Shown: in pieces, positions 3,845 to 44,495 of the stretch | Position numbering within the stretch: position 1 is the first letter of the stretch | Layout of the letters: each line of letters opens with the position of its first letter | NCBI RefSeq assembly: GCF_902806455.1 | Contig: NZ_CADCWQ010000001.1 | Location: forward strand, 620,001-684,000 | DNA: 64,000 nt | Direction: 5' to 3' | Source: Virgibacillus doumboii | GTDB taxonomy: Bacteria > Bacillota > Bacilli > Bacillales > Amphibacillaceae | The notes under the pieces: model-generated | What the model saw: only the letters and a program-made list of their open reading frames with translations | The model's database searches: none | What the model was told of the DNA's origin: nothing | Made by a program: the position numbers and the translations under genes

Positions 3845-3975
3845 GGTTGCTGCTCTACGAGTGTGAGTCGCGCGATAAGGTCGGAAGACGCGCAATAACA
3901 GTTGCAAGTCGCGCAATAAGATCTGAGCTTGCGCGGTAATTAGTGTAATATGCGCAATAAGATGAAAATAAAATA
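3845..3975 (+). repeat. 21-base-period CGCGC array A1, upstream of NERD copy 1
   Basis: Five degenerate copies of TCGCGCRATAAG are spaced 20-21 bases apart (core at 3869, 3889, 3910, 3930, 3951). The bases between cores differ from unit to unit. All units read the same way as the NERD gene that follows. Confidence 0.85.
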
Positions 3976-4047
3976 TGAGTATTCCTTCCAAAATGGTTAA
4001 ATTAAATTTTATACACAAATACTTATTCAAAATTATTCAGTTGTGTT

Positions 4048-4079
4048 CAGTAAATTCATATTCCGATATGAATTTACTG
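4048..4079. other. Conserved long hairpin upstream of NERD copy 1
   Basis: Perfect 14-base arms (CAGTAAATTCATAT and its complement) around TCCG, about 85 bases before the start codon. The same hairpin with small changes lies before NERD copy 2 at 20513-20544, so it belongs to the duplicated cassette. It may be a terminator for upstream reads, an operator or an RNA element; there is no T-run. Confidence 0.7.
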
Positions 4080-4164
4080 CTTTAAAAACGAATTTTACCA
4101 ATTTTTCAGATGTGATAATACGGTATATTATAGGCCTAATACGTATATAAAAGGAGAATTGAAC

Positions 4165-5118
4165 ATGATTATAAAAAAACGTGACAAGCCATTGCCGCTG
4201 AAAAAGCTGGATGCAGCGATACCGCGGCTGTCATCCCGATTCCCGCGTTTATCAAAGATGAAAAAAGACGCTGCATCCAGACAAAAGGGGTACGATGGGG
4301 AATTGGAGGTTGATTATTTTTTGGAGTATTTGGCCGGAACACATACGATTATTCAGGATGTTTACTTGCGGGTGAATGGGAAAAATGTGCAAATTGATTC
4401 ACTACTCGCTTCAAAGCATGCTATCCACGTTGTTGACTCGAAAAATCTGAGCGGCACAATTACCTTCGACACAAACCTCAATCAAATGACCCGCAATGAT
4501 GGAAAGGTGGAAGCAGGAAATGATAACCCAATTACCCAAGTAATGAATCAAAAATTCCACCTTCAGAATTGGCTCGCCCAACACAACCTTCCCAACATCC
4601 CTATCCACTCCCTTGTTGCAATTAGTGAACCCTCAACCATCATAAAAGTAATCGGTGACGCGGAGGCAGTAGGGCAGACGGTTGCTCATGGCGCACGAAT
4701 TCCAACTATGATTATGGGAAAAGAACAACAACTAATCGGAGAAAATATAAATGATAGAAAAATAGGTAAAATGGTTTTGAATGCCTGCGGTGTTTTTGAT
4801 TTGGATATCATGGGAGAATTTGGTATTAAACCATCAGATTTGTCTCCCGGAGTCATATGTCCAGCGTGCAATGTGCTGGGTATGAAGCGGGTGTACGATG
4901 GATGGATTTGCAAAAATTGCAGCTGCAAATCACGCAATGCACATCTTAAGGCTATTTCTGATTATCTGCTGTTGATAAAACCATATATAACAAACAAAGA
5001 ATGCATGCGTTGGTTAGGCTTAACATCCCGAAGTACAGCAACAAGGCTGCTGAGGGGCAGTGACTTGATCTATCAAAAAGAATATAAGCGTTGGATTCCA
5101 AAATATGGACTGCGATAA
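4165..5118 (+). CDS. NERD domain-containing protein, copy 1
   Basis: 317 residues from ATG, with AAGGAG eight bases upstream; a TTG two codons earlier is less well placed. Residues about 45-165 are a NERD (nuclease-related) domain: GYDGELEVDYFLEYL, then QIDSLLASKHAIHVVDSKN with the D...D/E-x-K arrangement expected of a PD-(D/E)XK-like core. Residues 230-260 form a four-cysteine zinc ribbon (CPACNVLGMKRVYDGWICKNC), and the last 60 residues look like a small DNA-binding helical domain (KECMRWLGLTSRSTATRLL). A paralogue lies at 20629-21588. Both are flanked by CGCGC arrays and followed by a heptad-repeat gene. Nucleic-acid processing is the family expectation; the target is unknown. Confidence 0.85.
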   Translation: MIIKKRDKPLPLKKLDAAIPRLSSRFPRLSKMKKDAASRQKGYDGELEVDYFLEYLAGTHTIIQDVYLRVNGKNVQIDSLLASKHAIHVVDSKNLSGTITFDTNLNQMTRNDGKVEAGNDNPITQVMNQKFHLQNWLAQHNLPNIPIHSLVAISEPSTIIKVIGDAEAVGQTVAHGARIPTMIMGKEQQLIGENINDRKIGKMVLNACGVFDLDIMGEFGIKPSDLSPGVICPACNVLGMKRVYDGWICKNCSCKSRNAHLKAISDYLLLIKPYITNKECMRWLGLTSRSTATRLLRGSDLIYQKEYKRWIPKYGLR

Positions 5119-5124
5119 GTATTA

Positions 5125-5290
5125 TAGTTCGCGAGGAAACTGTCTTAACTCGCGCGAAATCTGCCTTAATTCGCGCGAAATCCATTTCAATACGCGCAAT
5201 AAGCAGCCGAACTCGCGCAAAATCAACATTAAAACGCGCAATAAAAGCTAAACTCGCGCACCAAACCTCAAACCTCGCACAATAAGCAGG
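5125..5290 (+). repeat. 21-base-period CGCGC array A2, downstream of NERD copy 1
   Basis: Eight units of ACTCGCGCRAAA type with cores at 5130, 5151, 5172, 5193, 5214, 5235, 5255 and 5276. The spacing is 21 bases with one 20. Linker bases are not conserved. Orientation is the same as array A1. Confidence 0.88.
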
Positions 5291-5313
5291 AACACTAATT
5301 CACAAATAATGTT

Positions 5314-5337
5314 GATTTTCGGCGGCAGCCGAAAATC
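5314..5337. other. GATTTTCGGC palindromic hairpin between NERD and coiled-coil genes (copy 1)
   Basis: Ten-base arms with loop GGCA. The equivalent position in copy 2 (21801-21824) is a perfect 24-base palindrome, so the pairing is kept while the loop has changed. It sits between array A2 and the promoter region of the coiled-coil gene; a T-poor terminator or processing site is possible. Confidence 0.7.
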
Positions 5338-5523
5338 TTCCTTCAAATTTAAATTAAATATTGCATAATGTTTTTTACTTAACTATTGTTACGTAATTAG
5401 GAATTAAATATCTGCATTAACTTAAAGTTTTGCCAGACTTATGTTAAATGCCTCTTCAAAAAATCGACATTATCAGCAAGGAATTATGTTATACTTGATA
5501 ATAAATGAAGGGAGGTGAATCAG

Positions 5524-5958
5524 GTGGAAAAAGAAGATAAGATTATCGGGATGCTCGAGTCAATTACTGAAAGAATCGGTGGCATAGACAAGCGTCTTGA
5601 CGGGATGGACAAGCGGTTCGACGGCATAGACAATCGCCTCGACGGAATGGACAAGCGTTTTGACAGCATGGATAAGCGCCTTGATGGAATGGATGGACGG
5701 ATGGACAACTTTGAGCAAAAATTGGAAATGCAAGGTGAAACATTAAAAGAGCATGGACAAATTTTGCGTGCTCTACAGTCCGGACAAGAATACCTAAGAG
5801 CAGAAATCGATGGTATGAAAATTTCAAATGCAAAGGAATTCAGCTCTTTAAATGAGGCGCTGGATGATCATTCCATAAAATTGGAGCTTGTGCGCGAAGA
5901 TACTTGGGCAAACAAAGTCGATATCCATCGTATGAAGACTACAATGGGCATGAAATAA
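5524..5958 (+). CDS. Heptad-repeat coiled-coil protein, copy 1
   Basis: 144 residues from GTG, placed by GGGAGG eight bases upstream; starting here gives the same length and N-terminus (MEKEDKIIGMLES) as copy 2 at 21966. Residues about 18-65 are seven-residue repeats of the form GMDKRFD / GIDNRLD, encoded by near-identical 21-base units. They are followed by a second helical region (EQKLEMQGETLKEHGQIL) and a conserved C-terminus ending TTMGMK. No signal peptide or membrane segment is present. The gene follows the NERD gene after about 400 bases of repeat DNA, and this order is the same in both cassettes, which argues for a shared function. No enzymatic motif is visible; an elongated oligomer is likely. 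Confidence 0.85.
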   Translation: MEKEDKIIGMLESITERIGGIDKRLDGMDKRFDGIDNRLDGMDKRFDSMDKRLDGMDGRMDNFEQKLEMQGETLKEHGQILRALQSGQEYLRAEIDGMKISNAKEFSSLNEALDDHSIKLELVREDTWANKVDIHRMKTTMGMK

Positions 5959-6181
5959 CTACTTCAATACCTACACTAAAAAAGCGCTTCAACAAATTAT
6001 ACTTCTTTTGATGGGGATTTCTATTTCTCCCCATTCCACAACTAGTAGTTGAACGTAACTTACAGCAAAATGTTCAGCATAAAAAGACAGCTGTCGAGCT
6101 ATGGCTACATGGAATTGCTAACCTCCCACAAATGAAATTGAAGGGGACAATTGCGAAAAATATCGGGCTGTGAAGTATTCG

Positions 6182-6216
6182 GAAAAAGCGCATGAATCAC
6201 ACTCATGCGCTTTTTC
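6182..6216. terminator. Strong bidirectional terminator-like hairpin
   Basis: Fourteen-base arms (GAAAAAGCGCATGA against TCATGCGCTTTTTC) with a short loop, A-rich on one side and T-rich on the other. The stretch from 5959 to 6617 holds this hairpin, array A3 and the promoter region of the TPR gene, and no gene that I can support. Confidence 0.75.
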
Positions 6217-6287
6217 ATGGAGGAATTGGAAAAGGTGCGATTTTTGTGTGCAACTGCATATAGCATAGCAGGGTATAAGTGGAGTAA

Positions 6288-6480
6288 ACTCGCGCGACAT
6301 ACCCTCAGACTCGCGCGAAAAAAACAAAACTCGTGCGGCAAGCATCCAAACTCGCGTGATATCAGCTTTAACACGCGCAATAGGCACCTTGACTCACGCG
6401 GTATCAGCTTTAACACGCGCGGCAAGCACCCGAACACGCGCGATAACCAACTTTAAACGCGCAACAGACATTTGACCTCG
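6288..6480 (+). repeat. 21-base-period CGCGC array A3, upstream of the TPR gene
   Basis: Nine units with cores at 6291, 6312, 6332, 6353, 6374, 6395, 6416, 6437 and 6458: eight intervals, seven of 21 bases and one of 20. Consensus is ACWCGCGCRAYA followed by variable sequence. This is the cleanest long phase run in the window together with array A6. Confidence 0.9.
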
Positions 6481-6617
6481 GGATAGATTATCAAAATCTC
6501 GGTAGACAGCCTCAAACACAACAGAGAATCGTCCTGTTATAAATTACAAAGTCGAACTATACTTACACCAAATATCCTAGTACAATAGAACAAGATTTAA
6601 TTCGAGGGGTGACTGAA

Positions 6618-7526
6618 ATGCCGGGTGCGCAAATTAATCCGCAATTGACTCAACAGTTAAATCCATTCATGATCAAGTGCAATAGTTGCGGGCGTAAAGG
6701 GAAGTATGATGTTGGCTTGATGATTTATAATCACAATGAAAAAGTAATGACCGACAATCCCGAGAGTAAAATTCAAACTATAGGGTATTTTCGCTGCAAA
6801 CATTGTAATGATGCAGGTAATTGGGAAATGCCGACACAATTTTTGATGGCTCCCACAGCTGGAATCTTAGCAAAATCTACAGGTGAGATGGATGATAGGT
6901 TTCAAATTGGAGAAAGTCAATTATATGACGGGAGCTGGCATTTATTCAGCTCAGATGGTGAAGTTCATCTTTTAAATCAACTAAAGGAAGATCCAACCAA
7001 TGCCTTTATTTGGAACCGCCTGGGGAATTTATATGACAAGGGAAACCGGCCTGAACTGGCAGCATGTGTCTATGAGCATTCCATAAAAATCAATCCTAAA
7101 CAAATAGAGTCTCACTATACACTTGGGGGATATTTATTTCAAATTGGCGAGTTCAAAAAAGCTGCTTACCATTATAAACAGCTGCTGCTGGGTGCCAGTG
7201 AGTATCCATTAGTGACTCCGGAAAAATTGCGTGAATTGATTGCCATTGGCTTAGTTGATTTATTTCATATTTACCAGTTTTCAAATGGCGAAATCCCATT
7301 CCTGCCTACAAAAGAAGAACTGGAAGCGGCGGGTAAACTGAAAGAAATTCAAAAAAATTATGTTGATATGAAAGTAAACATTATTCCAGATGAAACGGAG
7401 TCATTCTATCCGTTCGCTGAAATGTATATGGGAGCCCAAAAAGAGAAATTACCGCGCAGATTACGCACATTGAAAATTAAAAAGTCAGCAATCAAAAAGA
7501 AGAAAAGATGGAAGAAAAAAAAGTGA
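6618..7526 (+). CDS. Zinc-ribbon/TPR protein with lysine-rich tail
   Basis: 302 residues from ATG; GAGGGG lies eight bases upstream, while a GTG three codons earlier overlaps that site. Cysteine pairs CNSCGRKGKYD and CKHCND (residues about 20-65) form a zinc ribbon. Residues about 130-195 contain two or three TPR-like helical pairs (NAFIWNRLGNLYDKGNRPEL, then a second pair). The last 20 residues are extremely basic (KKSAIKKKKRWKKKK), suggesting binding to nucleic acid or ribosomes. The gene sits between two CGCGC arrays that face each other (A3 forward, A4 reverse). No specific function is known to me for this architecture. Confidence 0.75.
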   Translation: MPGAQINPQLTQQLNPFMIKCNSCGRKGKYDVGLMIYNHNEKVMTDNPESKIQTIGYFRCKHCNDAGNWEMPTQFLMAPTAGILAKSTGEMDDRFQIGESQLYDGSWHLFSSDGEVHLLNQLKEDPTNAFIWNRLGNLYDKGNRPELAACVYEHSIKINPKQIESHYTLGGYLFQIGEFKKAAYHYKQLLLGASEYPLVTPEKLRELIAIGLVDLFHIYQFSNGEIPFLPTKEELEAAGKLKEIQKNYVDMKVNIIPDETESFYPFAEMYMGAQKEKLPRRLRTLKIKKSAIKKKKRWKKKK

Positions 7527-7579
7527 ATTAAGGATGTCGTTGAAAAGTAGTGTGTCGGACTAATTATTGGGTACTAGTT

Positions 7580-7722
7580 GTACGAGTTAAGCTTTTATCG
7601 CGCAAGTTTATGTTAATATTACGCGAGTTCGGACGGTTATTGAGCGAGTTCCGCCTTTATTGCGCGAGTTAATGCTGATACCGCGCGTATCCGGATGCTT
7701 GTAGCGCGAGTTCAGTCTTAAT
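7580..7722 (-). repeat. 21-base-period CGCGC array A4 (inverted)
   Basis: Seven units read TTATTGCGCGAGTT on the plus strand, i.e. the motif is on the minus strand. Reference bases fall at 7583, 7603, 7624, 7645, 7665, 7686 and 7707, so spacing is 20-21. This is the only array in the opposite orientation. Confidence 0.85.
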
Positions 7723-17221: not shown

Positions 17222-17269
17222 AATGCTGAAGTCAGGCGTTACACTGAAGTGTGATTGGAGGTAAGCTGC

Positions 17270-17372
17270 AAAGTCGGGAGAGCGCAGCACGAAGTCGGGA
17301 GAGAGGACCGCAAACTCGGGAGAGAGCACCATAAAGTCGGGGGAGAACACCACAATAGCGGGAGACGCCCCC
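17270..17372 (+). repeat. 21-base-period TCGGGAGA array B1
   Basis: TCGGG occurs at 17274, 17295, 17316 and 17337, exactly 21 bases apart, with a fifth imperfect unit (AGCGGGAGA) in phase. Consensus is AARTCGGGAGAG plus nine variable bases. In the reading frame of the adjacent lipoprotein gene it spells a false heptad peptide (VLSPDFA). Confidence 0.88.
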
Positions 17373-17379
17373 CGCTATC

Positions 17380-20171: not shown

Positions 20172-20450
20172 TGGGATGAGTCGCGCGATAAGTGGGCAGG
20201 TCGCGGACTCGCGCGACGAGGAGGTCAGGACGCGCGATAAAGGAGAGGACTCGCGCGACGGGAAGGTCAAGTCGCGCAATAAGGAGAGAACTCGCGCGAC
20301 GGGGAGTGCAGGTCGCGCAATAAGGAGAGAACTCGCGCGATGGGGAGTGCAGGTCGCGCAATAAAGAGAGAACTCGCGCGACGGGAAGGTCAAGTTGCGC
20401 AATAACAGAAGGATCGCGCGCGGTAATCAGTCTAATACGTGCAAAAAAAG
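20172..20450 (+). repeat. 21-base-period CGCGC array A5, upstream of NERD copy 2
   Basis: About twelve units. The central part is arranged as 41-base pairs in which GTCGCGCAATAAGGAGAGAA alternates with CTCGCGCGACGGGGAGTGCA, so adjacent units have two alternating linkers. This is more homogenised than the other arrays, as expected of recent tandem growth. GC is high for this genome. Confidence 0.88.
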
Positions 20451-20628: not shown

Positions 20629-21588
20629 ATGATTATAAAAAAACGTGACAAGCCGCTGCCACTGAAAAAGCTGGAAGCGGCAATACCGCGGCTGTCACCC
20701 CGGTTTCCGCGTTTATCAAAGATGAAAAAAGACGCTGAATCCAGACAAAAGGGGTACGATGGGGAATTGGAAGTTGATTATTTTTTGGAGTATTTGGCCG
20801 GAACACATACGATTATTCAGGATGTTTACTTGCGGGTGAATGGGAAAAATGTGCAAGTTGACTCACTTCTCGCTTCCAAGCATGCTATCCACATTGTTGA
20901 CTCGAAAAACCTTAGCGGCACGATTACCTTCGACACACACCTCAATCAAATGATCCGCAACGATGGAAAAGCGGAAGCAGGAAATGATAATCCAATCACA
21001 CAAGTAAAGAATCAAAAATTCCACCTTCAGAATTGGTTCACCCAAAATAATCTTCCAAACATCCCTATCTTTCCCTTTGTTGCAATCAGTGAATCCTCAA
21101 CCATCATAAAAGCGATCGGTGACGCACAGGCAGTAGGTAAAATGGTTGCTCATGGGGCTCGAATTCCAACTATGATTATGGAAGAAGAACAACAACTGGA
21201 TGGCTTGAAAAATATACATGATAGACAGATAGGTAAAATGATTTTGAATGCCTGCGGTGAATTTGATCTGGATATTATGAAAGATTTTGGTATCAAATCA
21301 TCAGACCTGTCTCCCGGGGTCATTTGTCCGGCGTGCAATATGCTGGGGATGGAGCGGGTGTACGATGGATGGATATGTAAAAAATGTACCTGCAAATCGC
21401 GCAACGCACATCTTAAGGCTATTTCAGATTACCTACTGTTGATAAATCCATATATTACTAATAAAGAATGCATGCGCTGGCTGTGCTTAACATCCCGAAG
21501 TACAGCAACAAGGCTGTTAAGGAATAGTGGCTTGATTTATCAAAAAGAGCGCAAACGTTGGGTTTCAAAATATGCACGTCGACTATAG
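20629..21588 (+). CDS. NERD domain-containing protein, copy 2
   Basis: 319 residues, ATG with AAGGGGGAG upstream. It is collinear with copy 1 (4165-5118) over its whole length, with scattered substitutions and two extra residues in the region DGLKNIHDRQ. The NERD core (GYDGELEVDYFLEYL; VDSLLASKHAIHIVDSKN), the zinc ribbon CPACNMLGMERVYDGWICKKC and the C-terminal helical domain are intact, so both copies look functional. Synonymous as well as amino-acid changes are spread over the gene, so the duplication is not recent. It is flanked by arrays A5 and A6. Confidence 0.85.
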   Translation: MIIKKRDKPLPLKKLEAAIPRLSPRFPRLSKMKKDAESRQKGYDGELEVDYFLEYLAGTHTIIQDVYLRVNGKNVQVDSLLASKHAIHIVDSKNLSGTITFDTHLNQMIRNDGKAEAGNDNPITQVKNQKFHLQNWFTQNNLPNIPIFPFVAISESSTIIKAIGDAQAVGKMVAHGARIPTMIMEEEQQLDGLKNIHDRQIGKMILNACGEFDLDIMKDFGIKSSDLSPGVICPACNMLGMERVYDGWICKKCTCKSRNAHLKAISDYLLLINPYITNKECMRWLCLTSRSTATRLLRNSGLIYQKERKRWVSKYARRL

Positions 21589-21765
21589 GTCGCGCGATAA
21601 TTGTCTGTACTCGCGCCACAAAAGCTAAACTCGCGCAATAGTTATCCGGACACGCGCAATATTGGCTTTAACTCGCGCGATAAACATCCAAACACGCGCG
21701 TCATCCGACTCAGCTCGCGCGACGTACAAGGTAACTCGCGCAATAACCACCCCAACTCGAACAAC
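21589..21765 (+). repeat. 21-base-period CGCGC array A6, downstream of NERD copy 2
   Basis: Eight consecutive units of exactly 21 bases begin at 21589, 21610, 21631, 21652, 21673, 21694, 21715 and 21736, with a decayed ninth. Units begin ACWCGCGCRAYAA-like. The first unit begins one base after the NERD stop codon. Confidence 0.92.
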
Positions 21766-21800
21766 AATATTCCATCCCACACTATCTCATCAATAATGTT

Positions 21801-21965: not shown

Positions 21966-22400
21966 TTGGAAAAAGAAGATAAGATTATTGGGATGCTGGA
22001 GTCAATTAATGGAAGGCTAGACGGCATGGACCAGCGCTTTGATGGCATAGACAAACGCTTAGATGGAATGGACCAGCGCTTCGACGGCATAGACCATCGC
22101 TTAGATAGAATGGACCAGCGCTTTGATGGAATGGACAAGCGGATGGATGGTTTTGAGCAAAAATTGGAATTGCAAGGGGAAACATTAAAAGAGCATGGAC
22201 AGATTTTGCGTGCTTTACAGTCCGGTCAAGAGTACTTAACAGCAGAAATCGATGGAATGAAAATTGCAAATACGAAAGAATTCAGTGCCTTAAAAGGTGC
22301 GCTGGATGACCATTCTGTAAAATTGGAGCTTGTGCGAGACGACACTTGGGCAAACAAGGTTGATATTCATCGTATTAAGACTACAATGGGCATGAAATAA
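21966..22400 (+). CDS. Heptad-repeat coiled-coil protein, copy 2
   Basis: 144 residues from TTG with GGGAGG eight bases upstream, the same length as copy 1 at 5524. Seven-residue repeats of the form GMDQRFD / GIDKRLD run over residues about 12-62. The C-terminal half (EQKLELQGETLKEHGQILRA through DIHRIKTTMGMK) is nearly identical to copy 1. Changes fall mainly in the surface positions of the heptads (K to Q or H), which could alter self-assembly or partner choice between the two copies. Function is unknown. Confidence 0.83.
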   Translation: MEKEDKIIGMLESINGRLDGMDQRFDGIDKRLDGMDQRFDGIDHRLDRMDQRFDGMDKRMDGFEQKLELQGETLKEHGQILRALQSGQEYLTAEIDGMKIANTKEFSALKGALDDHSVKLELVRDDTWANKVDIHRIKTTMGMK

Positions 22401-32669: not shown

Positions 32670-33270
32670 AGACTGCGAACTAGACGAGTGTTATAACACG
32701 ACTAGGAAATATACTGTGATACTTGTCGTGTTCCAATTTTTTCAGCCAGGAGTGCAACATCGCTGAAAAAATTTCCGACACTTCAAGCACAAGAGGGATG
32801 CTCGGCGAAAAGCGGATTGATTTAGGCTTAAAATCCTCGTGAGGAACCGCTCTATCGGGGAAAACGATCCCGATTTGGCTTTGAAATCCTCGTGAGGAAC
32901 CGCTCTATCGGGGAAAACGATCCCGATTTGGCTTTAAAATCCTCGTGAGGAACGGTCTATCGGGGAAAAGAATCCCGATTTGGCCTTAAAATAGTCGATA
33001 GAACCGCTCTCTCGATGAAAAGGAGACCAGTTTTGGCTGTCATAGTTTTATTCTGCTATAGTTTCCCCAAACTAATGTAAGAGGGGAATTTTCTTAGCAT
33101 GATTGCATAAACACATTTTGAAATAATCATATAAAAGGTGTGCCCAAATAAATGATGAAAATCCCTTTAACATAGTGCCTTTAAGAATCCAAGCCAAACT
33201 GAGCTGGGAATGCGAGCAAATTCCGGCTGCGGGATAAGAGGGACTAATAATCAAAATTAGTTCGCAGTTT
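32670..33270. other. Gene-free 600-base segment bounded by inverted GACTGCGAACTA ends
   Basis: AGACTGCGAACTA at 32670-32682 is matched by TAGTTCGCAGTTT at 33258-33270 in inverted order. Just inside the left end is a palindrome centred on GTGTTATAACAC (about 32687-32698), and the middle is filled by 53-base tandem repeats. No open frame of substance. It splits the carnitine genes and looks like a non-autonomous insertion. Confidence 0.55.
32800..33035 (+). repeat. 53-base tandem repeat array C1
   Basis: Units starting AAATCCTCGTGAGGAACCGC begin at 32831, 32884 and 32937 (53-base steps); decayed units precede and follow. Each holds TATCGGGGAAAACGATCCCG, itself a dyad. Related 52-base units lie at 44339-44495. 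Confidence 0.85.
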
Positions 33271-44303: not shown

Positions 44304-44338
44304 ATTGATGTTTTTAAATTTATGCAGAAACTAGGCTT

Positions 44339-44495
44339 GAAATCATTGTGAGGAAGGCTGTCTTGATGAAAAGGAGGCCGGTTTATGGTTGAAATCATCG
44401 AGAGGAGCGCTTTCACGATGGAACGGAGGTTGAATTGGGGATGAAATCATTGAGAGAAGTGCTGTCTTGGCGACAAAGAATCGGAAAGTGAGGAT
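44339..44495 (+). repeat. 52-base tandem repeat array C2
   Basis: Units beginning GAAATCAT start at 44339, 44391 and 44443 (52-base steps). They share GAAATCATTGTGAGGA and later CTTGATGAAAAGGAGGCCGG with the 53-base units at 32800-33035 but are more diverged. The rest of 44304-44593 has no gene. Confidence 0.8.

Follow-up and report, generated by a model that had tools for sequence, protein, structure and literature searches.

A 64,000-nucleotide stretch of a 3.91-Mb Virgibacillus genome (C1:620001-684000, referred to here as the window) contains two copies of a gene for a protein with a NERD nuclease-like domain, each accompanied by arrays of a short repeat. Arrays of this kind are associated with NERD genes in a manner that depends on the class of the protein, with repeats of 20-21 bp at genes of class A and repeats of 52 bp at genes of class B. 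The repeat core is gene-specific, mostly the same on both sides of the gene and more alike between related proteins, and in this genome the cores of NERD genes recur at dispersed sites. Since the flanking core recurs elsewhere in the genome, the relation between gene and array is cognate rather than local. We consider it probable (roughly 0.6) that the protein, which combines NERD, zinc ribbon and winged-helix parts, forms a two-part system with its own private repeat arrays. The data point to an undescribed protein-plus-repeat genetic system in Bacillus-related bacteria.

Six arrays of the window, A1-A6, belong to one family, F1, with the core ACTCGCGCRAYAA. Allowing up to two mismatches, 40 matches to this core were found in the window, compared with a mean of 3.1 and a maximum of 10 in 100 dinucleotide shuffles, and a position weight matrix (PWM) scan resolved six arrays with a total of 48 units, in which all 42 steps between neighbours were 20 or 21 bases (Table 1). 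A sequence-only reading of the window had described phased arrays of a CGCGC motif, and these counts bear it out: its listed core positions in array A3 are exact, and its estimate of about 49 copies stands close to the 48 units counted; including degenerate units at the array edges would add a few more. With each of 21 arrays of the genome contributing a single unit, the information content is 0.6-1.9 bits at positions 1-12, except at position 11 (0.19), and at most 0.33 bits in the linkers, which are near random between arrays. Single steps in these 21 arrays are 20 or 21 bases in 138 out of 140 cases. The interpretation of the step as two helical turns also holds, and the step persists in different loci and genera and with unrelated linkers. 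Each F1 unit consists of a 13-bp core and a linker of 7-8 bp, and the linkers are frequently identical inside one array, where runs of identical units represent recent local duplication. Array units differ strongly between the two sets of NERD gene, coiled-coil gene and arrays in the window (4-7 kb and 20-22 kb). Clustered regularly interspaced short palindromic repeats (CRISPR), with repeats of more than about 20 bp and unique spacers of similar length, were rejected on these dimensions, as the earlier reading had done (cas genes were not searched for). That reading also placed all six arrays within 2.5 kb of a NERD gene, which is true of A4 when measured to the gene; the distance from A4 to the NERD domain is 3.0 kb.

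For the analysis of gene association, NERD proteins were sorted into classes by C-terminal profile, with automatic gene starts and class assignments. A motif-blind period search with relaxed filters, extending 600 bases to each side, detected 20/21-base arrays at 79 of all 86 class A loci. When the count was limited to loci selected through a NERD match, alone or together with open reading frame (ORF) length, thereby excluding the window and loci partly drawn from genomes known to hold CGCGC arrays, the figure was 44/48 (45/49 with the window's own locus, L028, included). Forty-nine proteins with and without arrays had been used to train the class A profile, and the remaining class A proteins gave 33/37. 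Class B genes had 52-base arrays in 12/12 loci and 20/21-base arrays in 0/12; eight of these twelve proteins were chosen for their 52-bp arrays and used to train the profile, so the class B figures are circular beyond the four independent proteins, which gave 4/4 and 0/4, respectively. Either type of array was found at 4/61 loci of other NERD types and at 0/30 GNAT acetyltransferase controls, and control lags were seldom hit. One locus without an ORF (L141) and the duplicates L028, L263 and, in the final count, L257 were dropped. The arrays are mostly located 80-250 bp ahead of the NERD gene and/or directly behind it.

Two differently chosen sets were also searched. At 20 loci taken solely by NERD match, a motif-blind scan detected 20-22-base arrays at most loci, with mostly different cores and with other families of the order included. 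In a further set, 40 genomes of the order each contributed one longer NERD gene, picked by ORF length after longer NERD proteins had shown arrays (an array near the one from G060 was already known). With strict filters and 1.5 kb per side, arrays were found at 26 of these 40 loci (20 with 20-22-bp and six with 52-bp repeats), compared with 2/27 for other NERD types and 3/30 for GNAT controls. Chains of exact 7-mers at steps of 20-21 occurred at 18/40 loci, while steps of 14-15, 16-17, 18-19, 22-23 and 24-25 occurred at 0/40; those at 26-27 (6/40) and 30-31 (3/40) correspond to doubled steps of 52 and 60. Chains at steps of 19-22 were present at 5/30 GNAT loci.

Among 22 two-sided loci with phased 6-mers on both sides, the core was common to both flanks in direct orientation at 16, palindromic or undecidable at three and unshared at three, and at none was it inverted; six of the 28 two-sided loci were left out of this count because one side had no phased 6-mer. 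Pairs from different loci had a common core in 40/462 cases. By protein identity, a common core 6-mer was present in 4-8% of locus pairs below 50%, in 21/98 pairs at 50-60% and in 33/69 pairs from 60%. The 52-base cores differ between the two class B genes of this genome, and each gene has phased 8-mers in common with four other arrays, none of which matches both. F1 arrays and the NERD gene also co-occur across genomes: of the 15 genomes with F1 arrays, 12 contain a gene of the clade of NERD copy 1 (P0002; at least 250 bits), against five of the 45 without them (Fisher 1.5e-6, uncorrected for descent). G003, the sole genome of the genus without F1 matches, also lacks a P0002-clade gene. G009 and G010, listed in the same genus as the genome of the window, encode NERD proteins identical to those of V. 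subterraneus and V. litoralis, which is the basis for the genus name Virgibacillus. A search for CGCGC triplets led to 19 other genomes, in nine of which a NERD gene adjoins such an array, in six of them by coordinates, with the NERD domain within 700 bases (G031, G060, G103, G124, G297 and G358), and in three by reading of the locus (G249, G150 and G262). In G297 and G358, a backward control pattern matches about as often, owing to their repeat sequence.

The earlier description was incomplete: F1 arrays are spread over the whole genome, and further array families, with cores of their own, show almost the same period. A three-unit F1 model gave 54 matches in the genome; their places, together with one further place at 1202 kb, make up 22 F1 arrays, including the six of the window, with 3-13 units each and mostly 6-10. 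In the refined set, 13 of the 19 F1 arrays on contig C1 lie more than 6 kb from each of 11 NERD domains, so that F1 arrays are not restricted to the surroundings of the NERD cassette, and proximity to NERD genes was rejected as a full account of them. The sequence-only reading had named genome-wide arrays unlinked to NERD or coiled-coil genes as the outcome that would speak against it; the first half of this is what was found, but the link with NERD genes stands. The families F2 (core GCCGAAGTTCACAA), F3 (core ATATCAACCCGAGAA) and F5 (core AATTTATCAGGAGAAG) have steps of 21 (11/60 scored as 22), 20 (40/41) and 20 (13/13), respectively, next to the 20/21 of F1, and families with 52-bp units are also present. 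Nine of the 11 NERD genes of this genome adjoin arrays: two of family F1, one of F3, one of F5, three of F2 forms and two of 52-base units. The cores of F1, F2, F3, F5 and two 52-bp families found at these genes recur at dispersed sites. The two NERD genes without adjoining arrays, at 2330 and 2359 kb, are of other NERD types, and the gene at 1033 kb (G000:C1:1032755-1033689, L049), which is in two pieces, adjoins an F5 array of almost identical units.

When 401 kb of the genome, a sample that included places picked for arrays, were scanned for lags without reference to any motif, 34 clusters appeared at lags 20-21 and at most three at each other lag below 40. In an evenly spaced 400-kb sample, the non-coding arrays had lags of 20 (four), 21 (three) and 52 (six), plus multiples of 20-21, and the remaining lags (10, 27, 46 and 51) were represented by one array each. 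Tandem Repeats Finder (TRF) at a low threshold was too permissive and was not used in the counts. This narrow range of periods is difficult to reconcile with plain minisatellites that grew by replication slippage and adjoin NERD genes without functional meaning. Perfect tandem copies in some arrays would fit such an origin, which is nevertheless very improbable: one core appears in arrays with unrelated linkers, and the controlled gene association and the period that tracks the protein class already contradict it through the class A/B split and the controls.

Table 1. Arrays and genes of the window, in window coordinates
Feature	Position	Strand	Remarks
Array A1, 5 units	3866..3960	+	about 205 bp ahead of NERD copy 1
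NERD copy 1 (P0002), 317 aa, class A	4165..5118	+	NERD nuclease-like domain, zinc ribbon, C-terminal winged helix
Array A2, 7 units	5148..5285	+	30 bp past the stop of NERD copy 1; degenerate unit ahead, from about 5127
Coiled-coil gene (P0001), heptad repeats	5524..5958	+	
Array A3, 9 units	6288..6467	+	
Array A4, 6 units	7595..7711	-	strand opposite to the other F1 arrays of the window; gap between convergent genes
21-bp array, core AAAGTCGGGAGAGAGC	17255..17377	+	3 kb to the nearest NERD gene
Array A5, 12 units	20207..20447	+	upstream of NERD copy 2; extra motif at 20179
NERD copy 2 (P0003), 319 aa	20629..21588	+	86% identical to copy 1
Array A6, 9 units	21588..21767	+	begins at the stop of NERD copy 2
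Second coiled-coil gene	21966..22400	+	78% identical to the first
52-53-bp array	32800..33029	.	nine phased 8-mers in common with the array at the class B NERD gene at C1:386 kb
52-bp array	44327..44480	.	no phased 8-mers in common with either class B NERD array

Class A proteins are about 320 residues long. A conserved stretch at the N-terminus is followed by the NERD domain and a zinc ribbon, and the C-terminus forms a helix-turn-helix with a wing. P0002 matches the NERD family PF08378 with 69.4 bits (cut-off 22.1), and this is the sole Pfam family above cut-off; PF08378 also matches all 22 rows of a class A alignment, and two class B proteins score 51.7 and 50.5 bits with no other Pfam family reported. 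The G-E, Q-I-D and E-V-K-N nuclease columns are largely conserved in 49 class A proteins. An AlphaFold2 model of the last 92 residues of P0002 (predicted local distance difference test, pLDDT, 86) shows a zinc ribbon and a winged helix, and its best Foldseek folds are mostly winged-helix regulators, such as BrxR, CapW, IclR, MarR and LexA, with probabilities of up to 0.99. A full-length model of P0002 was poor (pLDDT 38.9) and was set aside in favor of this C-terminal part, and a sequence profile search of the PDB gave no match below E 0.19. In 149 genomes of the phylum, nearly all from outside the order, matches to the class A profile extend no further than position 246 of 323 and stay below 97 bits (compared with up to 398 here), with the exception of the window's own genome; thus, full-length class A proteins were not seen outside the order in this sample.

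The fold also bears on a defence or toxin-like function, according to which the arrays would restrain the nuclease or mark self DNA while the protein acts on array-free DNA of phages or plasmids. NERD domains occur in defence proteins, and the nearest fold is BrxR, a BREX regulator. However, the matches of P0002 to the PglW and MAD6 families are weak and confined to the NERD region, and we regard such a function as highly unlikely.

F1 arrays are located in intergenic gaps, often in sense orientation after the 3' end of a gene, and all 11 F1 arrays in tandem gaps on C1 are co-oriented with the genes. Across four families, 39 out of 43 arrays are co-oriented with replication, compared with 474 out of 628 genes (binomial 0.011); two arrays on contig C2, where GC skew is unclear, were excluded from the direction count. 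In convergent and divergent gaps, 12/15 arrays are co-oriented with replication. The sense orientation after genes would suit an element acting at the transcript level, as a terminator or stabilizing 3' structure, and F1 arrays show a slight folding advantage over shuffles (mean z -1.8). On the other hand, folding scores are near zero for the other three families tested (F2 0.19, F3 -0.28 and F5 -0.03; up to eight arrays each, both strands), and an F1 array is positioned between the co-stranded genes purN and purH. A role of the arrays in transcripts thus has little to recommend it, and a plain terminator or RNA element was rejected, as folding is unsupportive in three of the four families. 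Only the F1 core is partly palindromic, and hairpins are therefore not a common feature of the arrays, so that the earlier distinction from repetitive extragenic palindromic (REP) hairpins holds for the arrays as a class.

The purN-purH gap contains F1-like arrays, with other core forms, in about eight of 12 genomes of the genus, one of them with just two units. G004 has an F2-like array there, G003 a single unit and G002 none, and in G008 the gap is 20 bp long. The gap therefore represents one site that carries different cores in different species; it may be a tolerant landing site or fulfill a needed function. Arrays at this site in about nine of 12 species, despite the differing core, would agree with a host function. 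The NERD protein would then be a regulator or nucleoid protein that binds DNA and uses the arrays as operators or anchoring sites, and its nuclease fold may serve only for binding. Such a protein would control itself at its own gene and take part in organization or strand marking elsewhere. The placement of arrays before and/or directly behind the NERD gene resembles self-control, and the retention of core and step while linkers drift, the co-orientation with replication and the BrxR-like winged helix are also in keeping with it. Against a host function stand the patchy presence across genera and sites, the largely kept catalytic residues of class A and the several paralogues per genome, each with another core, which suggest lineage-by-lineage expansion over one fixed duty. 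Overall, we consider a host function unlikely, although less so than the other alternatives.

In the preferred two-part system, the first part would be the protein, with its PD-(D/E)xK nuclease-like NERD domain, zinc ribbon and C-terminal winged helix, and the second part its private repeat, with a core of about 10-13 bp every 20-21 bp in class A and a unit of 52 bp in class B. The arrays immediately precede and/or follow the gene and also occupy scattered intergenic positions. The winged helix would bind the core, neighbouring protein units would occupy nearly one face of the DNA and the nuclease domain would nick at a fixed distance. Repair or replication slippage would then duplicate units and seed arrays elsewhere, and preferential amplification of units with a good core would hold core and step constant while the linkers drift. 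That the NERD protein binds its own arrays is very likely, given the shared cores and the predicted winged helix, whereas we give even odds to its causing the growth or spread of the arrays. In sum, the analysis shows the association of genes with arrays, its dependence on protein class and the dispersal of the cores in this genome, and we infer from it that the protein takes part in binding, cutting and spreading of the repeats. More tentatively, the proteins and their phased arrays may constitute an undescribed class of bacterial repeat-making elements, in which each paralogue would have its own DNA address and its nuclease domain would build and renew arrays there at two-turn (A) or five-turn (B) steps via the replication fork, giving whole genomes strand-oriented, protein-specific landing sites.

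Several observations weigh against the two-part system. Seven class A loci have no detectable 20/21-base array, one of which (L240) has 52-bp arrays, and 52-bp repeats are present at two class A loci, so that the class A/B split is imperfect. Three genomes with F1 arrays lack a P0002-clade gene, among which G004 has six F1 matches, and five have the gene without the arrays; in ten of the 19 CGCGC-array genomes no NERD gene lies beside such an array. Dispersed F1 arrays have unrelated linkers, which makes a plain copy-and-paste of arrays unlikely, and the F1 array at L047 on C2 opposes both neighbouring genes. A match between the purN-purH core and the species' own NERD gene was considered and rejected as weak: an 8-mer is common with the flanks of the species' own P0002-clade gene in 3/8 species, compared with 8/56 cross pairs. 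The motif that reads E-x-K in most class A proteins is D-x-K in P0002, the Foldseek E-values are 0.026 and above, and searches of plasmid and phage collections gave no match to P0002.

Direct repeats of about 20 bp that are bound in register by a DNA-binding protein are known from plasmids, as iterons and as the ParR/parC centromere arrays. Whereas these are confined to one plasmid locus, the arrays described here occupy dozens of chromosomal sites, with variable linkers and a nuclease-like protein, and their neighbours are chromosomal NERD genes and other genes rather than plasmid replication or partition genes. The STAR elements of Staphylococcus also consist of a GC-rich motif in intergenic arrays with variable spacers; we know of no cognate gene and no 21-bp step in them.

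The logic of the NERD arrays appears to resemble that of the REPtron, with a different enzyme and repeat. In REPtrons, REPs flank the RAYT genes, with which they co-evolve, and the genes also correlate with REP number (PMC2817692; PMC8266576). As in the REPtron (RAYT/TnpA-REP) described there, each repeat family has one gene, the gene is flanked by its own repeat, further repeats are dispersed in intergenic regions, and protein and repeat vary together. Repeat abundance in the REPtron is tied to the cognate gene, and the parallel here concerns presence only (the 12/15 and 5/45 genomes given above). By comparison with these accounts, the NERD protein is not an HUH tyrosine transposase, NERD being the sole Pfam family in P0002 and in two class B proteins; the repeats form direct, helically phased arrays, with the palindromic REP form absent outside F1, where it is partial; and the flanking copies are direct, with 0/22 inverted. 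Since enzyme, repeat form and flanking orientation differ, the NERD-array system is not a REPtron.

The NERD domain is also shared by SmdA, which is described in the sections consulted as a membrane-anchored cell-morphology protein that lacks several conserved NERD residues, with arrays unmentioned in those sections (PMC9040797). The same sections state that NERD function had, to the authors' knowledge, not been studied experimentally (PMC9040797). This conflicts with a passage in a 2025 paper, in which the nuclease activity of the pXO1 NERD protein is presented as shown, with citation of the 2004 domain paper (PMC12567373). In the literature searched, which left most subscription journals outside, no paper linking NERD genes with repeats was found, nor any in which such a NERD protein binds or cuts arrays. 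If the proposed system is correct, NERD, a widespread domain of unsettled function, gains a partner and a likely substrate, and much of the tandem-repeat DNA in the non-coding samples of this genome is accounted for. Moreover, the 82 class A loci that remain after removal of duplicates constitute a natural set of protein-core pairs for reading a recognition code.

The earlier interpretation of the arrays is partly supported. Its proposal that arrays and the pair of NERD and coiled-coil genes form one system holds for the NERD part (79/86 class A loci) and fails for the coiled-coil part. The set of NERD gene, coiled-coil gene and arrays is present twice in the window, but a tblastn search of flanks of 1.5 to several kb, with duplicate loci removed, detected the coiled-coil gene outside this genome at one out of 14 distinct P0002-clade NERD loci (L285, 48% identity). 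NERD and coiled-coil genes as a pair were ruled out on this count, and the neighbour P0001 is probably not part of the system.

A number of further arrays and repeats were recorded. Arrays of 21 bp with the core AAAGTCGGGAGAGAGC are also present at L040 (137-194) and L041 (about 8280); a NERD partner for these and for the array of the window was looked for and none was found, and they are perhaps a relic family related to F1. Arrays with a 52-bp period, about five helical turns, amount to 20 candidates in 0.8 Mb of the genome, some of them marginal; apart from those of the window they occur at L034, L035, L038, L039, L048, L087, L089, L090, L096, L097 and L100, and several are linked to the two class B NERD genes through common 8-mers. 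Very long arrays, with up to 40 units and cores such as ACTCGTGCGAG and ACTTGAGCGAG, were observed in G005 (L064, L065). In one genus, represented by G046 (L066-L069), F1-like arrays often form head-to-head pairs with about 15 bp between them. An inverted repeat, TGTTGATTTTCGGC...GCCGAAAATCTTCC, is recurrent near arrays or NERD genes, in the window at about 5307-5337 and behind A6, and also at L039, L043, L123 and L124. A second inverted repeat, GTTTTGCACC...GGTGCAAAAC, is located directly ahead of the F1 arrays at L034, L039 and L043.

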